From the NCBI GenBank assembly GCA_902788555.1, contig CADAKQ010000026.1, forward strand, positions 1 through 45,775: a DNA stretch of 45,775 nt, written 5' to 3'. Position 1 is the stretch's first letter. Every line of letters starts with the position of its first letter. Both the position numbers and the translations under genes were made by a program. The DNA comes from an uncultured Lachnospiraceae bacterium (GTDB taxonomy: Bacteria > Bacillota > Clostridia > Lachnospirales > Lachnospiraceae). Of the stretch, positions 5,460 to 16,858 are shown piece after piece. The notes below the pieces were generated by a model, which was not told where the DNA came from, searched no databases, and worked only from the letters and a program-made list of their open reading frames with translations.

Positions 5460-5514
5460 AAGCAGCCGGTAGAAAAATATAATATTTTTTCATACCCCGG
5501 CTGCTTTGTCTTTT
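5460..5514 (+). terminator. Long hairpin terminator after the ABC/two-component operon
   Basis: A 10-base arm AAGCAGCCGG at 5460-5469 pairs with CCGGCTGCTT at 5497-5506. The intervening stretch adds further pairing (GAAAAATAT with ATATTTTTTC). A T-rich run (TTGTCTTTT) follows. It closes the upstream operon. It also argues against the TTG at 5513 as the start of the next gene, because that codon falls at the base of the terminator. Confidence 0.8.
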
Positions 5515-5533
5515 GAAAGATGAGGTGAAGCTG

Positions 5534-8500
5534 ATGATTAAAGCAGAATGGGCCAAGATATTAGATGGCGCCGGATTTCAGGCTGCGGCTATATGTGTTT
5601 GTATAGTTTGTATTTATTATTTAATGGTAAAAACAAAACCTGAAAAATTCAGAAATAAATTATTTCTTATACTTGTCTTAAATGTGCTCATAGGAGCTCT
5701 TTGTAATTTTATCAGTGCGATACTGAAGTCCTATTTAAATGTATCTGATGCGGCATATAATGTCAGGATGATTTGTCAATATATTTATTTTATAATTCAT
5801 CCTATGCTTGCACCTCTTTTTTGCTTTTATGTCTCTATTGTCACCGGAGCAAATTATAAATTAAAAAAATACAGATTGATATCTGAAATCCCTGCTGCTT
5901 TTATGTTCTTGCTTGCACTTATCAATCCGATTACCAACTGGGTTTATTATTTTACTGAAAACAGAGAATTTCATAGAAATTGGGCAGAAAATATTCTTTA
6001 TGGAATAAGCCTTGTTTATTACATTTTTGCCATAGTTATGTTACTTTTGTTCTGGGATGCGATTAATACAAATGTAAGAAGAGTTATGATATTTTTCTTT
6101 ATATTTGTGGCGGTTGGACTTGGACTTCAGTTTATGTTTGCATCACTTCATACAGAGCTTTTTGCGGAGGCTATAGCCCTTTCGGGAATCATGATAATAA
6201 TAGAAAACGAAGAGGGGCGTAAGGACTCAAGAACACATATCTATAATCACGCTGCACTTGCTTATGATATAAAGCAGTATATAAAGGTAAGACATTCATT
6301 TTTCATGATTTGTATAAAAATGAAAAATCCTATAGGGCTTATGCAGCTTATGGGAAATGCCAATATAGAAACACTTACGGAACTAACAGCCGAGTATCTT
6401 TCAACCCTTGTGCCTAAATATTCTATTTATTATATAGGAACAGGCACCTTTGTAATAGTAAATGAAAATGATGACAGGGATTATAATATAGGTATAGCAA
6501 AGGCGATTAAGGAGAGATTTAATCATAGCTGGCATTTTCAGGATAGAGATACCACCTTCAATGCTGCTGTTTTTTGTGCAGAGATACCTACTGACCTAAA
6601 GTCATATAAGGAAATATCAATGCTGATAAATGGTCCGATTCCGACAGAGGGTATAAATGAAGACATTATTTATTATGGCAGCAGTCTTAATTATGTCCTA
6701 AGAAGAAGTCAGGTTGAGGAGGCTATCAGAAATGGCATGGAAAAGAAGAATTTTGAGGTTTTTTTCCAGCCTATTTATAATGCAAATGACCTTACAATTT
6801 GTTCCGGTGAGGCACTGCTTCGTCTGCATGATGGAGATATAGGTGATATTTATCCGGATGAGTTTATTCCTATCGCAGAAAGAAGCGGCATGATATTTGA
6901 ATTGGGAGATTTTGTTTTGGATGAGGTCTGTAAATTCCTTAATTCCGGTATTCCTACGGAAATGGGCGTAGAGGCATTACATGTAAATCTTTCGGTTATA
7001 CAGTGTATACAGCCGAAGTACGCTGAAAGAATAATAAGTATTGTTTCAAAGTATGATATTTCGCCTTCCAAGATAGCTTTCGAGATAACGGAATCAGCAG
7101 CTACAACTGACTTTGCAGCTTTGAGAGATTTTGTCAGAAGACTTAGAGAAAAGGGATTCAGATTTATAGTTGATGATTATGGTGTCGGATATTCAAATGT
7201 TCACTCCATACTATCACTTGATGTTGATACTATTAAGATAGACAGAAGTATTCTTTGGGAGGCAGAGCAGTCGGAGATAGGAAGAATAATTATGGACAGC
7301 TCTGTTGACATGATAAAACGTATGCAAAAAAAGATACTCATAACCGGTGTCGAGACAAAAAAACAGATAGACCTTGCCGGAGAGTTTGGTGTGGATTATC
7401 TTCAGGGATATTATTTTTCAAACCCTATATCGCAAAATGAGTTTATCGGTATACTAAAGGCTACACAGATAGCAAAATTTGAAGAGCAAAAGGCTCTTGC
7501 GGCAAGTGAGGCGATGAGTGTATTTTTAGCAAATATGTCACACGAGATTCGTACACCTATCAATGCGGTTTTAGGACTTGATGAGATGATTCTTCGTGAG
7601 AGTGAGGATGACAATATAATCGAATATGCCAAGAATATAGAAAGTGCAGGAAGAACACTCCTGTCATTAATAAACGATATTCTTGATTTTTCAAAAATTG
7701 AGAAAGGAAATGTTGAGCTTAACAAGGGAGAGTATATGCTTTCATCTATGCTTTTTGATGTTGTAAATATGATGAAGCAAAGAGCACGGGAGAAGGGCCT
7801 TAAATTTATAACTGATATAGATGGTGATACCCCTGAAAAATTATATGGCGATGAGATACGTATAAGACAGATTATAATCAATCTTCTAAATAATGCCATA
7901 AAATATACTGATAAGGGCAGCGTTACCTTTAAGCTTGGCTATGAGAAAACGGACAGTGAGAATATAAAGCTGTTAATACATGTTAAGGATACGGGAATTG
8001 GAATCCGCAAGGAGGATATAGGCAAGCTATACGATAAATTCAAAAGATTTGATGCGGATAAAACGAAGACTATCGAGGGAAGCGGACTTGGACTTGCAAT
8101 AACAAAGCAACTTTTAAATCTCATGGACGGAAATATAAATGTAGAAAGTGAGTACGGAGTTGGTACAACATTTTTGGTGGAAATACCACAAAAGATACTG
8201 GATAAAAAAAGTATAGGTGATTTTGAAAGTAAGGGTACAAATGAGAAAAATGAAGGAAAAAGCAGAAAGGGGCATCTTGTTGCGCCTGATGCGGATGTGC
8301 TTGTAGTGGATGATACCCCTATGAATCTTATGGTTATCAGAAACCTCCTTAAGCGAACAGGCATAAAACTTGATGAAGCAGGAAGCGGTGCGGAATGTAT
8401 AGAAAAAGCTTCAAATAAAAAATATGATTTGATATTGCTTGATTACAGAATGCCAAACATGGACGGAATAGAGACATTGAAACATTTAAAATCAGACATT

Positions 8501-9310
8501 ATTAACACGAAAATACCTGTTATTGCTCTTACAGCAAATGCCATATCAGGCTCAAGGGAACGATTTATGAAGGAAGGCTTTGATGACTATGTAACAAAGC
8601 CAATCGATGGAGAAAAATTGGAAAAGGTTCTTATGTTCTGGTTGCCCGATGATAAGATAAGATGGTCAGAGCAGGAAACAGATATCTGGACAGATGAAAA
8701 AGATGATTATAAAAATGATGACGATGATTTTCGGGGGATAAAAAAATATGAAGAGATTAATATAGAAGAAGGTATAATATATTGCGGTTCAAAGGAAAGC
8801 TATCTGGAGGTTTTAAATGCGTTTAAGGGTGAAATCGATAATCGTATATCGGTTATAAAAAATGCTCTTGCTGAAAAGAATTTAAAACGATATACGGTTG
8901 AGGTTCATGCCATAAAAAGCTCATCTAAAATAATAGGAGCAGATAAGCTTTCAAAGCTTGCCAAAGAGCTTGAGGATGCCGGAAATAATAATGACACAGG
9001 CTATATCAATTCTCATAATGAAGAGCTTATCAAGCTATATGAAGCTTGTAAAAAAATAAGCTTGGATGAGAATGATAATAAGCCTGATAATGAGCTTGAT
9101 GATGAGCTCTGGAAAGATGCATTAAAAACGCTTTATGAATTTGCGGACACCATGGATTATGATAATTTTAAAACAGTATTAAAAACAATTGACAATTATA
9201 AAATAACAGATGAAAAAGCAGATATAAAGGGGCGGATTGAAGAGTTTTTCAGAAGACTTGAATGGGACAGCCTTAAAGTATTGATAGATGAATATTTAAA
9301 AAGGAGATAG
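5534..9310 (+). CDS. 7TM / degenerate GGDEF / EAL / histidine kinase / REC / Hpt hybrid signalling protein
   Basis: This very large protein (1258 residues) joins c-di-GMP turnover to a phosphorelay. Residues 1-210 form a 7-TM sensor typical of Firmicute kinases. Residues 220-390 resemble GGDEF, but the signature loop is lost (GTGTF). The EAL domain (about 400-650) keeps EALLR (Glu426), VNLS, EITES, DDYGVGYSN, IKIDRS, GVET and the final LQGYY, so phosphodiesterase activity is plausible. HisKA has His670 in MSHEIRTP. The ATPase has NLLNNAIKYT, DTGIGI and GSGLGLAI. A receiver has Asp970 in LLDYRMP, and a C-terminal Hpt domain has His1125 in HAIKSSS. ATG 5534 is chosen because GAGGTG lies seven bases upstream; the TTG at 5513 has no ribosome binding site. 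The receiver-only protein downstream is the likely phosphorelay partner. Confidence 0.9.
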   Translation: MIKAEWAKILDGAGFQAAAICVCIVCIYYLMVKTKPEKFRNKLFLILVLNVLIGALCNFISAILKSYLNVSDAAYNVRMICQYIYFIIHPMLAPLFCFYVSIVTGANYKLKKYRLISEIPAAFMFLLALINPITNWVYYFTENREFHRNWAENILYGISLVYYIFAIVMLLLFWDAINTNVRRVMIFFFIFVAVGLGLQFMFASLHTELFAEAIALSGIMIIIENEEGRKDSRTHIYNHAALAYDIKQYIKVRHSFFMICIKMKNPIGLMQLMGNANIETLTELTAEYLSTLVPKYSIYYIGTGTFVIVNENDDRDYNIGIAKAIKERFNHSWHFQDRDTTFNAAVFCAEIPTDLKSYKEISMLINGPIPTEGINEDIIYYGSSLNYVLRRSQVEEAIRNGMEKKNFEVFFQPIYNANDLTICSGEALLRLHDGDIGDIYPDEFIPIAERSGMIFELGDFVLDEVCKFLNSGIPTEMGVEALHVNLSVIQCIQPKYAERIISIVSKYDISPSKIAFEITESAATTDFAALRDFVRRLREKGFRFIVDDYGVGYSNVHSILSLDVDTIKIDRSILWEAEQSEIGRIIMDSSVDMIKRMQKKILITGVETKKQIDLAGEFGVDYLQGYYFSNPISQNEFIGILKATQIAKFEEQKALAASEAMSVFLANMSHEIRTPINAVLGLDEMILRESEDDNIIEYAKNIESAGRTLLSLINDILDFSKIEKGNVELNKGEYMLSSMLFDVVNMMKQRAREKGLKFITDIDGDTPEKLYGDEIRIRQIIINLLNNAIKYTDKGSVTFKLGYEKTDSENIKLLIHVKDTGIGIRKEDIGKLYDKFKRFDADKTKTIEGSGLGLAITKQLLNLMDGNINVESEYGVGTTFLVEIPQKILDKKSIGDFESKGTNEKNEGKSRKGHLVAPDADVLVVDDTPMNLMVIRNLLKRTGIKLDEAGSGAECIEKASNKKYDLILLDYRMPNMDGIETLKHLKSDIINTKIPVIALTANAISGSRERFMKEGFDDYVTKPIDGEKLEKVLMFWLPDDKIRWSEQETDIWTDEKDDYKNDDDDFRGIKKYEEINIEEGIIYCGSKESYLEVLNAFKGEIDNRISVIKNALAEKNLKRYTVEVHAIKSSSKIIGADKLSKLAKELEDAGNNNDTGYINSHNEELIKLYEACKKISLDENDNKPDNELDDELWKDALKTLYEFADTMDYDNFKTVLKTIDNYKITDEKADIKGRIEEFFRRLEWDSLKVLIDEYLKRR

Positions 9311-10734: not shown

Positions 10735-11467
10735 AATAGAATTTAATCCAAAGCTTATAAAATATACTTTAAAATTTCTTTGCAGAATACTTATTTTTGG
10801 AAGTGTCCTTATACTTTATATAATCGATAGAAAATGGATAACGGAATTTTTAAATATGCCCTTTGGCTTTTTTGGTGTTACACCGCTTCATATTGTATGG
10901 GGCATTTTTATGTGTATTATGATTTTTCATCTTCTTCCGTCAAAGACACAGAGAAGGACGATGGCATGGCTTAAGATGAAGGAGAATGTTTATGAGCCTG
11001 TAGAAAATTATGATGAGTTGAAGCTTCTTGAATATGTACAGGACCAAAACAAAAAAGCGTGGACGGTTATGCTTATATGGCTTTCATTTAACGCTTTTTG
11101 GGCATTACTTTATCTTAATAACATAATAGAAGAATCGGAGCTTTTTTTACTCTCGGCATTTTATTTTCTTAGTGATTACATATGTATTCTTTTTTATTGT
11201 CCTTTTCAGTCAAATATTATGAAAAATAAATGCTGTGTTAATTGCAGAATATATGATTGGGGACATTTTATGATGTTTACTCCGATGCTTTTTATAAAAA
11301 ATTTCTTTTGCTGGAGTTTGTTTTTTACATCTATAGTTGTACTTATAAAGTGGGAGATAACCTATACCAAATATCCTGAAAGATTTTGGGAGGGCTCAAA
11401 TAAAAATTTAAAATGTGCAAATTGTAAAGATAAAACCTGTCAGTATAAAAAACAGTATCAGAAATAA
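10727..11467 (+). CDS. Uncharacterised Cys-rich multi-pass membrane protein
   Basis: I do not recognise a family name. The protein has 246 residues and four or five hydrophobic segments (near residues 12-32, 47-65, 105-125, 135-160 and 185-205). Its distinctive features are clustered cysteines on the cytoplasmic or loop side. CCVNC lies near residue 168, followed by a Trp-Gly-His stretch. A C-terminal CANCKDKTC forms a four-Cys knuckle that could bind zinc or an iron-sulfur cluster. It overlaps ybaK by eight bases, so the two are likely co-translated. Its 3' end overlaps the convergent pnuC gene by ten bases. A role in metal or redox handling at the membrane would be a guess. Confidence 0.75.
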   Translation: MNKIEFNPKLIKYTLKFLCRILIFGSVLILYIIDRKWITEFLNMPFGFFGVTPLHIVWGIFMCIMIFHLLPSKTQRRTMAWLKMKENVYEPVENYDELKLLEYVQDQNKKAWTVMLIWLSFNAFWALLYLNNIIEESELFLLSAFYFLSDYICILFYCPFQSNIMKNKCCVNCRIYDWGHFMMFTPMLFIKNFFCWSLFFTSIVVLIKWEITYTKYPERFWEGSNKNLKCANCKDKTCQYKKQYQK

Positions 11468-12102
11468 GAAGTCTGATTCTTCTTCATGCGTTGCCAATTT
11501 ATAAAGCCGTAGAGATCATTTAAGAGAAACATAATAAAGCATAACACCATTGGAAGATATGCTATGTTTGTGGTAGTCGCAAGTATCCATAAGATGATAA
11601 GTACAATGTCATTTCCGGCATAGAAAAGTGCATAATATGAGCTTCTTAAAAGTGTAAGGGAGGCGGCCATAAAGCTTGTAGTAATGGATATTGTTGATAC
11701 AATTAAATTGGGAGTATCAAAATATTTAAGCACATAGTAAAAAATAATTGTTACAGCTATGGTAAGCACTGTAAGAATCGACCAAAGCTTAGGATTGGTG
11801 TGTCTCACCTTTACCTCTCCCTTCTTATATGGATTTCTAAGCCATGTAACCACAGCACCCATTGCAATTGGTGCTGTCATACCAAGGTAGGTTATCATTT
11901 CTCCCCAGTATCTGAATTTAAATGACACAAATGCATAAAAGAATGCAAATATAACAGTAAGAAGCTGTCCCAGCACATCTCCCTTTGCTACAAATATCAG
12001 AGCCGTAACACCGATAAGTGAAGCTGCCAATGTCATATACTCGTTGCTTTTAAAAGCAAAAAACGATATAAATATAACAAGAAGGGAAATAACCCATATC
12101 AT
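11458..12102 (-). CDS. pnuC: PnuC-family nicotinamide riboside (vitamin precursor) transporter
   Basis: The 214-residue membrane protein has seven or eight hydrophobic segments and two PnuC signature stretches: the TTSFMAASLTLLRSSYYAL block followed by ND, and the C-terminal LNDLYGFINWQRM. PnuC proteins facilitate uptake of nicotinamide riboside, which is trapped inside by phosphorylation; sister families carry thiamine or riboflavin. No NAD-salvage gene is adjacent, so the substrate is assigned by family only. GGTGG lies about nine bases before the ATG. The gene has its own promoter and a leader of about 190 bases with an apparent terminator/antiterminator pair, so expression is probably controlled by transcription attenuation. 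Confidence 0.88.
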   Translation of the reverse strand: MIWVISLLVIFISFFAFKSNEYMTLAASLIGVTALIFVAKGDVLGQLLTVIFAFFYAFVSFKFRYWGEMITYLGMTAPIAMGAVVTWLRNPYKKGEVKVRHTNPKLWSILTVLTIAVTIIFYYVLKYFDTPNLIVSTISITTSFMAASLTLLRSSYYALFYAGNDIVLIILWILATTTNIAYLPMVLCFIMFLLNDLYGFINWQRMKKNQTSYF

Positions 12103-12185
12103 TTTTTCATACCACCGTAATCGTTTTACTGATTCAAATATATTAATTTTAAATTTCTCCTTAACATAAAAAAATAAGAATAATA

Positions 12186-12290
12186 CTGAAAAAGCATTCG
12201 TAAATTGTACCTTCTAAGACCTAACGATACAATAAACGAATGCTTTGGCATTCTGCTACCCGGTGGCAGCTTACAATATTCAGTAAATCT
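12186..12290 (-). promoter_or_regulatory. pnuC leader: candidate riboswitch or attenuator with mutually exclusive hairpins
   Basis: Reading the minus strand, the leader RNA first forms a hairpin GCUGCC-ACCG-GGUAGC (12270-12255). It then forms GAAUGC-CAAA-GCAUUC (12253-12238). The GCAUUC arm is also part of AAAGCAUUCGU (12246-12236), which can pair with ACGAAUGCUUU (12201-12191) to make an 11-bp hairpin followed by UUUUU, an intrinsic terminator. The second hairpin and the terminator cannot coexist, the arrangement expected of an attenuator. I could not match it to a riboswitch class I know (TPP, FMN, preQ1, THF, ZTP, T-box). The ligand is unknown. Confidence 0.65.
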
Positions 12291-12298
12291 GATAAGAA

Positions 12299-12326
12299 TT
12301 ATTACATATTAATTCTATAAAGTCAA
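12299..12326 (-). promoter_or_regulatory. Sigma-A-like promoter of the pnuC leader
   Basis: On the minus strand a -35 element TTGACT (12326-12321) is followed after 16 bases by TAATAA (12304-12299), with an upstream TG that may extend the -10. Transcription would start near 12291, just ahead of the structured leader. Confidence 0.6.
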
Positions 12327-12387
12327 GTGGGTGTCAGGGACATGCTATACTGCATAATTCGCCTGTTTTCCTGTGATACCTACACCG

Positions 12388-12416
12388 TTGACAAAATTTG
12401 TTGTGCATTATATACA
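12388..12416 (+). promoter_or_regulatory. Sigma-A-like promoter of the PAS/GGDEF-like/EAL gene
   Basis: A perfect TTGACA (12388-12393) is separated by 17 bases from TATACA (12411-12416). The predicted 5' untranslated region is about 185 bases, in which I see no recognisable riboswitch. The gap 12103-12609 therefore holds two divergent promoters and the pnuC leader. Confidence 0.65.
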
Positions 12417-12609
12417 ATTCATTAATGATATATTGTCAAAATGTGAACAAAATGTAAATAATACTTTTAAATTGTCGGTATATAGTTTATAATAAAAATA
12501 GGTTTTCAGTGCTTTTTATATGGATTAAAAATGAATTTAAAGCAACATATATAACATTGATTTGGATATAAATTTTGGAAATGTATTTTGTAGAATGCGG
12601 GGGAATGCA

Positions 12610-14268
12610 ATGGATCAGGAAAGAAAGATAAAGCTTGATGAACTCTTTGAAGCATTCTCGGTTGTTGCCGAGGGTACTTATGTGTATATTTGTGATATGA
12701 ACATCGATGTATCGAGATGGTCAAAGAGTGCAGTTAATTATTTTGGACTTCCAAATGAATATATGGAAAATGCAGGAGTTATATGGGAGGATCATATTCA
12801 TCCTGAGGATAGGGAGGACTATCATCACAGTATTGATATGATTTTCTCCGGCAAGGATGGGGGACATGATATGCAGTATCGTGTCAGAACACGTGATGGA
12901 AATTACGTAGTTTGTACCTGTAGAGGAGTTGTAATACGTGACACCGATGGAAGACCAAACTATTTTGCGGGAGCAATCAAAAATCATGGACTGAAAAGCT
13001 ATATTGATAATGTGACCGGGCTTCGTACCTTATATGGTTTTTTTGAGGACTTAAGGGCGATGTTCTGGAAGCGTGACGACGCCGTTATTCTCCAGATTGG
13101 TATATCCGGATTTTCAAATTTGAATGATGTATATGGGTATACCTTTGGAAATAGAATTTTGCAACAGCTCGGAAGGCTTCTTCAAAAGAAATTTGCCAAT
13201 ACGGGAGCCTGTTATCGTATGGACGGAACTAAGATGGTTGTTGTGAGCCATACCCTTAATTCAGGTCAGGTTGCAGATATCTATAATGAGATTAAGGATG
13301 AGGTCAGTCACGATTTTTATGTTGATGATGAGCTTATAAGTATTTCCTTAAATGGCGGATTGGTTATAGTTGATAATTTTGAGATAAGCGATAAGACGGT
13401 TTACTCATGTCTTAAGTATGCATATAGCGAATCTAAGAATCGTAAGATGGGAGACTTGGTTGTTTTTCATGATATGCTTTCTCATGATAACCGAAAAACA
13501 ATCGAAAAAATAAATGTTATTCGTAATAATGTATCTGAGGATTGCAGTGGCTTTTATCTTTGCTACCAGCCGATAATGCATGCCTCCTCAGAAAGCTTAA
13601 AGGGTATGGAAGCACTTGTAAGATGGAAGAGCGATACCTATGGTACTGTTCCACCGAATCAGTTCATTCCGATACTTGAACAGGATTCACTTTTTCCTAA
13701 GCTGGGCAAATGGATATTGAGACAGGCAATGCTTGATGGGAAAAGATTTCTTGAAAAATATCCTGATATGATTATGAATGTTAATCTTTCTTATGCGCAG
13801 CTCGAAAAGGATGGTTTTATAGAAGAAGTGTTGGAGCTTCTTAAGGAAACGGAATTTCCGCCTCAAAATCTCTGCCTTGAGATAACGGAAAGATGCAGAT
13901 TACTTGATGTGGAGCTTCTAAAGGATATGGTAAATATATTCCGGGATAACGGAATTAAAATAGCACTTGATGATTTCGGAACAGGATATGCATCGCTTGG
14001 AATACTTCGTGAGCTTCCTGTAGATACAGTTAAGATAGACAGAGAATATGTCAAGGATGTTGAAAAGAGTACGGCAGACCAGAGCACAGTAAGATTTATA
14101 TCGGATCTTGCAGATGCGTTTTCGGCAGAGGTATGTGTTGAAGGCGTTGAAACTGCAGAGATGAGAGACTTCCTAAAGCAGTATAAGGTAAGCTCACTAC
14201 AGGGATATTATTATTCAAAGCCTGTTCCTTCGGATGAATTTCTGGAGATGGATTTCGTAGCCGGATAA
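12610..14268 (+). CDS. PAS / degenerate GGDEF / EAL c-di-GMP phosphodiesterase
   Basis: The predicted soluble protein has 552 residues. An N-terminal PAS domain (about residues 20-130, with HPEDR and the YRVRTRDG strand) is followed by a GGDEF-fold domain (about 135-290). There the catalytic signature is replaced by MDGTKM, so cyclase activity is unlikely. The EAL domain (about 300-545) keeps MEALVRW (Glu334), NVNLS, LEITER, DDFGTGYAS, VKIDREYV, EGVET and LQGYYYSKP, a complete metal and substrate-binding set. It should hydrolyse c-di-GMP in response to a PAS-bound ligand. ATG 12610 is preferred over an upstream TTG because a GGGGGA ribosome binding site lies six bases before it. A strong terminator follows directly. 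Confidence 0.92.
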   Translation: MDQERKIKLDELFEAFSVVAEGTYVYICDMNIDVSRWSKSAVNYFGLPNEYMENAGVIWEDHIHPEDREDYHHSIDMIFSGKDGGHDMQYRVRTRDGNYVVCTCRGVVIRDTDGRPNYFAGAIKNHGLKSYIDNVTGLRTLYGFFEDLRAMFWKRDDAVILQIGISGFSNLNDVYGYTFGNRILQQLGRLLQKKFANTGACYRMDGTKMVVVSHTLNSGQVADIYNEIKDEVSHDFYVDDELISISLNGGLVIVDNFEISDKTVYSCLKYAYSESKNRKMGDLVVFHDMLSHDNRKTIEKINVIRNNVSEDCSGFYLCYQPIMHASSESLKGMEALVRWKSDTYGTVPPNQFIPILEQDSLFPKLGKWILRQAMLDGKRFLEKYPDMIMNVNLSYAQLEKDGFIEEVLELLKETEFPPQNLCLEITERCRLLDVELLKDMVNIFRDNGIKIALDDFGTGYASLGILRELPVDTVKIDREYVKDVEKSTADQSTVRFISDLADAFSAEVCVEGVETAEMRDFLKQYKVSSLQGYYYSKPVPSDEFLEMDFVAG

Positions 14269-15073: not shown

Positions 15074-16858
15074 TTGATTGAAGCATATTATTTAGCGACA
15101 TTTGTTTTATCAGTTGTTGGAACGCTTATATTTGCATGGCGGTGGAAAAGTGATACCAATATATATTTTACCTTGCTTTTCATTCTTATACCTATAACCA
15201 ATATGGGCTTTTATATGCTTTCCGTATCAAAAAATCTTGAGGAGGCATTGATAGCAAATAATATAACAATACTTGGCGGTAATTTTCTGTCGCTTTTTAT
15301 AATGCTGAGTATAGTATCTATGTATGAGGGAAATGTTTCAAAGATATTTACTATTGTGATGTTTACCCTCAGCTTTTTGATATACGGCTTTACATTTACT
15401 ATCGGTCGTTCTGATATTTATTATAAAGAAGCAGTTTTCAAAATTGAAAATGGTGTATCGATTTTAGAAAAAACCTATGGTCCTATGCATGCTGCATTTT
15501 ATGTAATTATTATACTTCATGCGGTTATAGGTATAGGAGTTATAATATTTTGCTTTAGAGGAAATAAGGGGGTATCATATAAATCTCTTATTTTCTTTTC
15601 GGCGATTGAGGTACTGTCCCTTTCTTCTTATCTGATTGGAAAAGCAATAGGCAGTAACCTGAGCTTTATGCCGGCGGAGGATATAATGTTTCAAATTATC
15701 ATGCTTATAATCATAGAGGATACCTCTCTCTACAATATAAGTCGCGTGCAGGCCTCATCCCTTATAGATAAGGGTGAAAACGGATTTTTATCCGTAAGTA
15801 CCAAGAACAATTATATAGGCAGTAATAATACCGCTAAGGAGTTTTTTCCTGAGCTTGCCAGACTCAGAGTTGATAAAAAATTTATAGATATGGAAAATGA
15901 ATATTCAATCATTTCCATACTTCATGGCTTCATAGATGATTTTAAGGGCAAATGTGTCGACCACGGCGGAGATGCATATGATTACGAGGATGTGCATGAC
16001 CATCCCTATGAACATAAGCATGAACATCACGAGGACGAGCATATCCTTGAAAGAGACGGCAAAATCTACAGGATTGTTGTCGAGCATCTCATGTATCAAA
16101 AGAAGATTAAGGGTTATCAGATTTCCATAATTGATGAGACAAAGGAAAGAAAATATACCAAGCTTTTGCAACAGTATAATCAGAGGTTGGAACATGAGGT
16201 TGCTCAAAAAACAGAGCATATACAGGAAATTCAGGACAAGATGGTGCTTGGAATAGCAGATATGGTTGAAAATCGCGATGCAAATACCGGCGGACATATC
16301 AAGAGAACGAGCGAGGTTGTAAGAATACTTATTGATGAGATGAGAAAGGATAATATGGAAGGACTTGATGATGAATTTTGCAAATATGTTATTAAGGCTG
16401 CACCTATGCATGACCTTGGAAAGATTGCGGTAGATGATGCGGTGCTCAGAAAACCGGGAAGATTTACTCCTGAGGAATTTGAAGAAATGAAAAAGCATGC
16501 TGCCAAGGGTGCCGAAATAGTTCACAAGGTGCTGGCAGATATCGAAGAACCACGTTTCCAAATTATAGCAGAAAATGTGGCGCATTATCATCATGAAAGA
16601 TGGGACGGCTCAGGTTATCCGGAGCACATAAAGGGAGAAACGATTCCGCTTGAGGCACGTATCATGGCGATAGCAGACGTATATGATGCACTTGTAAGTA
16701 AAAGATGCTATAAGGATAGTATGTCCTTTGAGCAGGCGTTTAACATAATTGAAGAAGGCATGGGGACTCAGTTTGATGAAAGATTAAATAAATATTTTCT
16801 CGCATCAAGAGAAAAGCTTGAGGCATATTATACAGAGGTTGGAAGTAATCAGGTATGA
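15074..16858 (+). CDS. 7TM sensor / PAS-like / HD-GYP c-di-GMP phosphodiesterase with His-rich insert
   Basis: The 594-residue protein uses a TTG start, supported by GGAGG nine bases upstream. Residues 1-220 form a 7-TM sensor resembling the N-terminal region of Firmicute histidine kinases. Residues 230-365 form a PAS-like segment containing an unusual insert, with seven His between residues 308 and 323 mixed with acidic residues, a probable metal-binding loop. A coiled coil (about 370-400) leads into the HD-GYP domain. It has GGHIKRTSEV, HDLGK (His446-Asp447), the H-H pair in AHYHHERWDGSGYP (GYP at 514-516) and DVYDAL. The active-site set looks intact. Its stop overlaps the lrgA start (ATGA), so synthesis is coupled to the LrgAB proteins. 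Confidence 0.9.
   Translation: MIEAYYLATFVLSVVGTLIFAWRWKSDTNIYFTLLFILIPITNMGFYMLSVSKNLEEALIANNITILGGNFLSLFIMLSIVSMYEGNVSKIFTIVMFTLSFLIYGFTFTIGRSDIYYKEAVFKIENGVSILEKTYGPMHAAFYVIIILHAVIGIGVIIFCFRGNKGVSYKSLIFFSAIEVLSLSSYLIGKAIGSNLSFMPAEDIMFQIIMLIIIEDTSLYNISRVQASSLIDKGENGFLSVSTKNNYIGSNNTAKEFFPELARLRVDKKFIDMENEYSIISILHGFIDDFKGKCVDHGGDAYDYEDVHDHPYEHKHEHHEDEHILERDGKIYRIVVEHLMYQKKIKGYQISIIDETKERKYTKLLQQYNQRLEHEVAQKTEHIQEIQDKMVLGIADMVENRDANTGGHIKRTSEVVRILIDEMRKDNMEGLDDEFCKYVIKAAPMHDLGKIAVDDAVLRKPGRFTPEEFEEMKKHAAKGAEIVHKVLADIEEPRFQIIAENVAHYHHERWDGSGYPEHIKGETIPLEARIMAIADVYDALVSKRCYKDSMSFEQAFNIIEEGMGTQFDERLNKYFLASREKLEAYYTEVGSNQV

Follow-up and report, generated by a model that had tools for sequence, protein, structure and literature searches.

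The window analysed here, a stretch of 45,775 nucleotides from an uncultured Lachnospiraceae bacterium (contig CADAKQ010000026.1), carries on its minus strand a gene for a PnuC-family transporter preceded by an unannotated RNA leader. Comparison of its sequence with homologues makes it very probable that this leader is a guanidine-IV riboswitch, predicted to work as a transcriptional ON switch. Upstream of pnuC, a hairpin called P1, an antiterminator-like hairpin and an 11-bp terminator follow each other in that order, and the features of the region are the following:

12326 to 12298, minus strand: promoter-like site TTGACT-17-AATAAT, with TG ahead of the second hexamer and 10 of 12 consensus matches.
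12270 to 12255, minus strand: P1 hairpin GCUGCC-ACCG-GGUAGC of the putative guanidine-IV aptamer, with 99.5% of alignment cells paired in 75 pnuC leaders.
12262 to 12264, minus strand: 5' side of the predicted kissing pseudoknot, here ACC; the loop pair is ACC/GGU, GCC/GGC or GCC/GGU in 123 of the 123 sequences parsed (128 examined).
12253 to 12238, minus strand: antiterminator-like hairpin GAAUGC-CAAA-GCAUUC, whose GCAUUC is common to the 5' arm of the terminator.
12246 to 12191, minus strand: stem of the intrinsic terminator, whose base comprises 11 bp, with a U-run at 12193 to 12189.
12205 to 12232, minus strand: upper terminator stem with its 14-nt loop, GUUAGGUCUUAGAA, the second half of the putative aptamer, with 97.9% of cells paired.
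12221 to 12219, minus strand: 3' side of the predicted kissing pseudoknot, GGU, in the terminator loop, with loop-pair covariation.
11458 to 12141, minus strand: pnuC-family transporter gene, scoring 101.4 bits with PF04973 (cut-off 27.3) and 68.8 with TIGR01528 (cut-off 42.45).

Folding confirms the three hairpins and the coordinates given by a sequence-only reading of this DNA, in which the antiterminator (12238-12253) and the 11-bp terminator (12191-12246) share one arm, GCAUUC. The fold of 12186-12290 has a z-score of -5.9 against dinucleotide shuffles and that of 12186-12253 a z-score of -6.3, and none of the 200 shuffles folded as well in either test. The leader is a conserved cis-regulatory RNA in which the terminator and the antiterminator-like hairpin are mutually exclusive. 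The GC-rich hairpin with an ACCG loop described in the same reading corresponds to P1, but its loop is probably not a closed tetraloop: it would kiss the GGU of the terminator loop, an interaction that this reading did not mention. The element was also said to lie between a promoter and a vitamin-precursor transporter. The PnuC identity of the gene holds by both protein models and a promoter-like site is present, but the number of such sites in 12000-12700 (five, versus a mean of 4.8 in shuffles) is at chance level. The probable start codon of pnuC is ATT at 12141, since a relative (L006) has ATG at this position (MNIIKS..) and an AAGGAG site lies upstream, whereas starting at the first ATG (12102) would remove 13 residues; this ATT seems to be either a rare start codon or an assembly error.

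Searched as DNA against 100 genomes of its family, the leader matched 11, its own among them. In 7 of the 10 other genomes the match covered the stem region, six times before pnuC and once (L009) before a MATE gene, and these seven were aligned with the window, the matches of the three remaining genomes and one second match being excluded as short pieces. All eight leaders have GCC-R-CCGGGU, AUCGUUAGG-Y-C and GAAG in common. L009 alone differs at both R (A to G) and Y (U to C), a first sign of pairing between the two loops. The covariance model R1, built from these eight leaders, found matches in 110 of the 397 family genomes and in 20 of the 398 phylum genomes searched, three of the 20 being also in the family set. 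From these, 128 matches were extracted, including the eight training sequences, and six weak places of the family search (E 4e-4 to 0.009) were left out. The open reading frame (ORF) downstream encodes a MATE protein in 62 cases, PnuC in 26, an SMR protein in 15, a PNPOx-like protein in 12 and an ACT protein in 2, with 11 single or missing ORFs, among which the wrong ORF seems sometimes to have been chosen; representative proteins were named by Pfam and NCBIfam. One match without the conserved loops (L062, 26.3 bits) was taken as false and counted under 'other'.

Among the 123 matches that could be parsed, the kissing pairs are ACC/GGU (64), GCC/GGC (54) and GCC/GGU (5), with no ACC/GGC, so that all 123 are complementary; the five unparsed sequences are L062, L122, L126, L136 and L143, of which L122 and L126 fit by eye. 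Helix support was measured on 75 of 76 pnuC leaders, L098 being omitted for its long insert. P1, pseudoknot and terminator together have 97.1% of cells paired and 16 of 24 pairs changed on both sides, including 3 of 5 in P1 and 6 of 7 in the upper terminator stem; no shuffle out of 500 equals the alignment on any of the five measures, and slid versions pair in 32-42% of cells. The pseudoknot itself is nearly invariant inside this set, with one GC sequence among the 75.

Further loci came from a pattern scan of named genomes, from which the best 80 of 117 were used; because the pattern fixes part of the loops, these loci say nothing on the conservation of the loop letters. In Blautia sp. Marseille-P3087, two copies of the RNA (L156:889-976 and 1500-1587) lie on one strand about 600 bases apart.

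The class is placed through its published members. The guanidine-IV riboswitch is the GGAM-1 or mepA motif, for which the text of Lenkeit et al. reports two covarying nucleotides of a potential pseudoknot, a Rho-independent terminator and ON-switch behavior (PMC7736828). The emrE leader of Raoultibacter timonensis binds guanidine with a dissociation constant of 190 uM according to the same text (PMC7736828). R1 scores a leader of this species, among the pattern-scan matches listed, at 72 bits (E 1.6e-15), and an SMR protein gene begins 12 nt past the match. Since R1 matches that genome at just one other place (38.5 bits), with no SMR gene within the following 1300 bases, the 72-bit locus was taken as the published emrE leader, the identification with the published 92-nt construct resting on species and gene. 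The second copy in R. timonensis (L263:1301-1389) has the kissing pair CCC/GGG and is followed by an ORF resembling one in L217 (Adlercreutzia hattorii), where it separates the RNA from an SMR-like gene.

The guanidine-IV assignment rests on this homology, on the kissing-loop covariation and on the gene context of MATE, PnuC and SugE/SMR. As described in the published texts, the class shares with the family found here P1, a linker, a terminator hairpin with a conserved tip, a loop-loop pseudoknot and a transcription-termination platform, as well as the SugE/SMR, MATE and PnuC genes (PMC7736828, PMC12186494). The window leader has the two hairpins by which the class is recognized, the 3' one being a Rho-independent terminator, and its architecture is that of a P1 whose RCCG loop is able to kiss an AGGY loop in this terminator hairpin. 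Two differences stand out. MATE genes lead here, in a search centred on one family and one model, whereas sugE is the most frequent GGAM-1 gene in the text of the paper, which also lists MATE and PnuC (PMC7736828); and pnuC leaders often carry an extra linker hairpin exclusive with the terminator base. In the published texts, the proposal is that the kissing loop sterically excludes the terminator, and no such linker hairpin is mentioned there (PMC7736828, PMC12186494). A guanidine-IV riboswitch before pnuC is a combination already published, and the suggestion of the sequence-only reading that the element represents a new pnuC-associated RNA does not stand. The ligand is probably guanidine, as judged from class membership, rather than NAD+ (nicotinamide adenine dinucleotide), nicotinamide mononucleotide, nicotinamide riboside, thiamine or riboflavin, the ligands that had been proposed, which would then be wrong.

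The Rfam scan gave no hit to a known class, in line with the sequence-only reading, but this check does not discriminate. The window has no match in Rfam 15 at the gathering threshold, and in the leader region all matches at E up to 10 lie far below the gathering scores, the best being mir-586 (E 0.045). Rfam 15 likewise named no relevant family on the R. timonensis leader and two SMR-linked homologues, and on related leaders it gave only matches far below gathering scores; the sole match above was tRNA-like and lies in L006, outside its leader. As the R. timonensis leader gets no relevant family either, the silence of Rfam on the window leader is uninformative, and the guanidine-IV class seems to be absent from Rfam 15.

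Several observations weigh against the assignment. In the L. lactis construct, positions G62, G66, U67 and G72 were mutated, and G66, U67 and G72 of loop 2 were needed for binding, as the text of the paper states (PMC7736828). These positions, known by number and spacing only, do not fall cleanly on conserved letters of the present alignment, and the only G-U step that fits the published spacing would put U67 at a U/C-variable site, whereas the text calls U67 highly conserved. The unmapped positions slightly lower the confidence in the class and slightly raise that in the variant Gd4v discussed below. The class was compared by published text descriptions. By eye, the loops of L136 (ACA versus GGU) and L143 (no clear P1 loop) break the kissing rule, and L062 lacks the motif. 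Finally, the antiterminator-like hairpin is absent in some pnuC leaders (L188, L195, L203, L216 and L218), and it is therefore not essential to the class.

Among the alternatives, the one that survives best, although unlikely, is that the leader is a Gd4v variant sensing a guanidine-like ligand. Gd4v has the same two-hairpin kissing architecture, nearly identical overall; its published text reports that it is found preferentially in samples from the gut and that MATE genes are among those it precedes (PMC9788692). Its own features in that text are a D2 hairpin on the terminator hairpin, an altered D1 that is not G, transaminase genes and an unidentified ligand (PMC9788692). The window loop has 14 nt without such an added hairpin, and this is also the length in 117 of 125 measured matches, long inserts occurring in just two of them, L098 (31 nt) and L125 (38 nt). 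Gd4v is moreover reported never to occur with sugE (PMC9788692, text), whereas the P1 16-mer of the window and its loop segment CGUUAGGUCUUAGAAG are letter-identical to those of the SMR-linked leader L077. The position of D1 is given in a figure of that paper only, but every letter of P1 and of the loop in the window leader recurs in L077. In L098, which stands before pnuC, and in L125, the insert could form an added hairpin in the terminator loop, like D2 of Gd4v, and these two are possible intermediates between guanidine-IV and Gd4v.

The second alternative is that the pnuC leader responds to NAD+ or NAD+ precursors, as an NAD+-II-like or other vitamin B3 riboswitch. In a tree, 26 riboswitch-linked PnuCs stand on one side of a 100/100 branch, opposite six other PnuCs of the family, with the bootstrap not settled and one outsider forming a very long branch. 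Two PnuCs without an R1 match in the fetched stretches group with the 26. With its filters switched off, R1 scored no higher than 9.2 bits at the eight PnuC loci that were counted as unlinked. The tryptophan pair at the positions of W182 and W185 of the solved PnuC 4qtn, residues that hold the nicotinamide, occurs in 0 of 72 riboswitch-linked PnuCs (the 26 and 46 of 50 further ones from the pattern-scan set) versus 5 of 8 others, and two of the three unlinked PnuCs without it are the two inside the linked clade. The genome of the window, 89% complete, shows one pnuC, no SMR gene, no NadC and no NadR over the cut-off.

Sensing of B3 compounds would agree with the import of nicotinamide riboside by some PnuC proteins and with the missing NadC, which may mean that the organism needs a B3 vitamer, and an unrelated 'pnuC motif' of Streptococcus, likewise preceding pnuC genes, is the NAD+-II riboswitch according to its published text (PMC8632094). 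That RNA is described as having two stems, an internal bulge that is conserved and a possible pseudoknot involving the ribosome binding site (PMC8632094, text); the window leader is built differently. No B3-type class matched in Rfam even at E 10, although the pnuC-related models were not gone through singly. In addition, the same RNA most often precedes MATE genes and is also found before SMR genes, all 72 linked PnuCs lack the W182/W185 pair, and NadR does not reach its curated cut-off in the 89% complete genome. A B3 riboswitch is accordingly very improbable.

Least credible of all is that the leader is simply an intrinsic terminator or a protein-controlled attenuator, the hairpin upstream being there by chance: the terminator alone accounts for most of the folding energy, but a plain terminator needs neither the unpaired loop letters kept across many genera nor the loop-loop covariation seen here. 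All three alternatives were rejected. In the hydroxymethylpyrimidine pyrophosphate (HMP-PP, thiS) riboswitch, too, the terminator hairpin is described as carrying nucleotides of the aptamer at its tip (PMC8632094, text), but this likeness is one of design only, the sequences having been compared solely through the Rfam scans.

Within the guanidine-IV class, the pnuC leaders are set apart by the extra hairpin in the linker. Segments from P1 to the upper stem fold better than 200 plain shuffles at p < 0.05 in 42 of 74 distinct cases for pnuC versus 2 of 72 for MATE, 2 of 16 for SMR, 1 of 16 for PNPOx and 3 of 20 for other genes (208 matches, 5 unparsed; one pnuC segment was too short). When only the linker is shuffled, a weaker control that leaves out leaders with a linker below 5 nt (22 of 76 for pnuC), the counts of distinct linkers are 24/51 for pnuC, 5/40 for MATE, 0/6 for SMR, 0/6 for PNPOx and 2/10 for others. 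For the hairpin of the window, p is 0.005 with the whole segment and 0.11 with the linker only, which the fold cuts to 5 nt. When the five-pair helix is read off the sequence alignment, 97.4% of 305 cells retain it, and 70 of the full 375 cells are gaps. It has 10 cells changed on both sides versus a mean of 1.8 in shuffles (0 of 500 as high), whereas 11 of 500 shuffles come up to the numbers of pairs changed on both sides (3) and of further pair types (6). In slid versions, 20-34% of cells are paired and 2-7 are double-changed. Because the sequences are related and come from one model or one pattern, this is support and not proof. In L188, L195 and L203, the terminator arm begins immediately after the 3' arm of P1 or overlaps it, which prevents the extra hairpin from forming there. 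In the literature searched, as far as its text was covered, no description of the hairpin was seen, and it may be known. The extra hairpin may define a sub-type of the class. A fuller picture, in which a pnuC type of guanidine-IV riboswitch would have a dedicated linker antiterminator as an explicit expression platform, turning ligand-driven kissing into read-through through strand exchange and not through steric strain alone, and would control a PnuC clade that has lost the nicotinamide riboside site and is maybe a new kind of guanidine exporter, is tentative and somewhat less probable than even.

Around the leader and its gene, large signalling genes lie at 5513-9310, 12562-14268 and 15074-16858 of the window, their products, judged by sequence motifs, presumably being EAL/GGDEF-like, hybrid kinase and HD-GYP-like proteins. 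Elsewhere, the RNA precedes genes for a DUF1989 protein, an ArgZ-like protein and a pair of similar proteins at L051, L099, L109 and L124; the one member of the pair examined has an ACT domain. The DUF1989, ArgZ-like and ACT-type genes are possible further guanidine-linked genes. In plasmid collections, one homologue precedes a PNPOx-family gene on a Selenomonas plasmid and another lies on an unannotated Subdoligranulum plasmid, whereas an Acetoanaerobium record gave a 22-base match only; the phage collections searched held no homologue.

The structure and the class suggest the following mechanism. Without ligand, the nascent RNA would complete the long terminator hairpin and transcription would stop before pnuC. 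With guanidinium, the ACC of the P1 loop would kiss GGU at a stage when no more than the upper terminator stem has formed; this contact would block the closing of the lower stem, and RNA polymerase would continue into pnuC. An ON response of this kind is reported for other class members (PMC7736828, text). Pairing and covariation suggest that, here and in many other pnuC leaders, the freed 5' arm of the terminator could then pair with the linker (12238-12253), which would hold the antiterminated state. Calculated without a kissing term, P1 plus terminator has -30.1 kcal/mol versus -21.2 kcal/mol for P1 plus extra hairpin plus upper stem; as the terminator is favored at equilibrium, the choice would be kinetic, in agreement with the text of a single-molecule study of another member (PMC11611296).

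An unannotated leader is thus assigned to a class that seems to be missing from Rfam 15 although R1 matches 110 of 397 genomes of the family. The extra hairpin offers a testable answer to the question, raised in the text of Lenkeit et al., of how kissing of the terminator hairpin prevents termination. The finding points away from vitamin B3 and towards guanidine as the signal that controls a gene whose annotation is nicotinamide riboside transporter. The simplest role for its PnuC product would be the removal of guanidine or of a related compound, on which Lenkeit et al. had already speculated for PnuC (PMC7736828).
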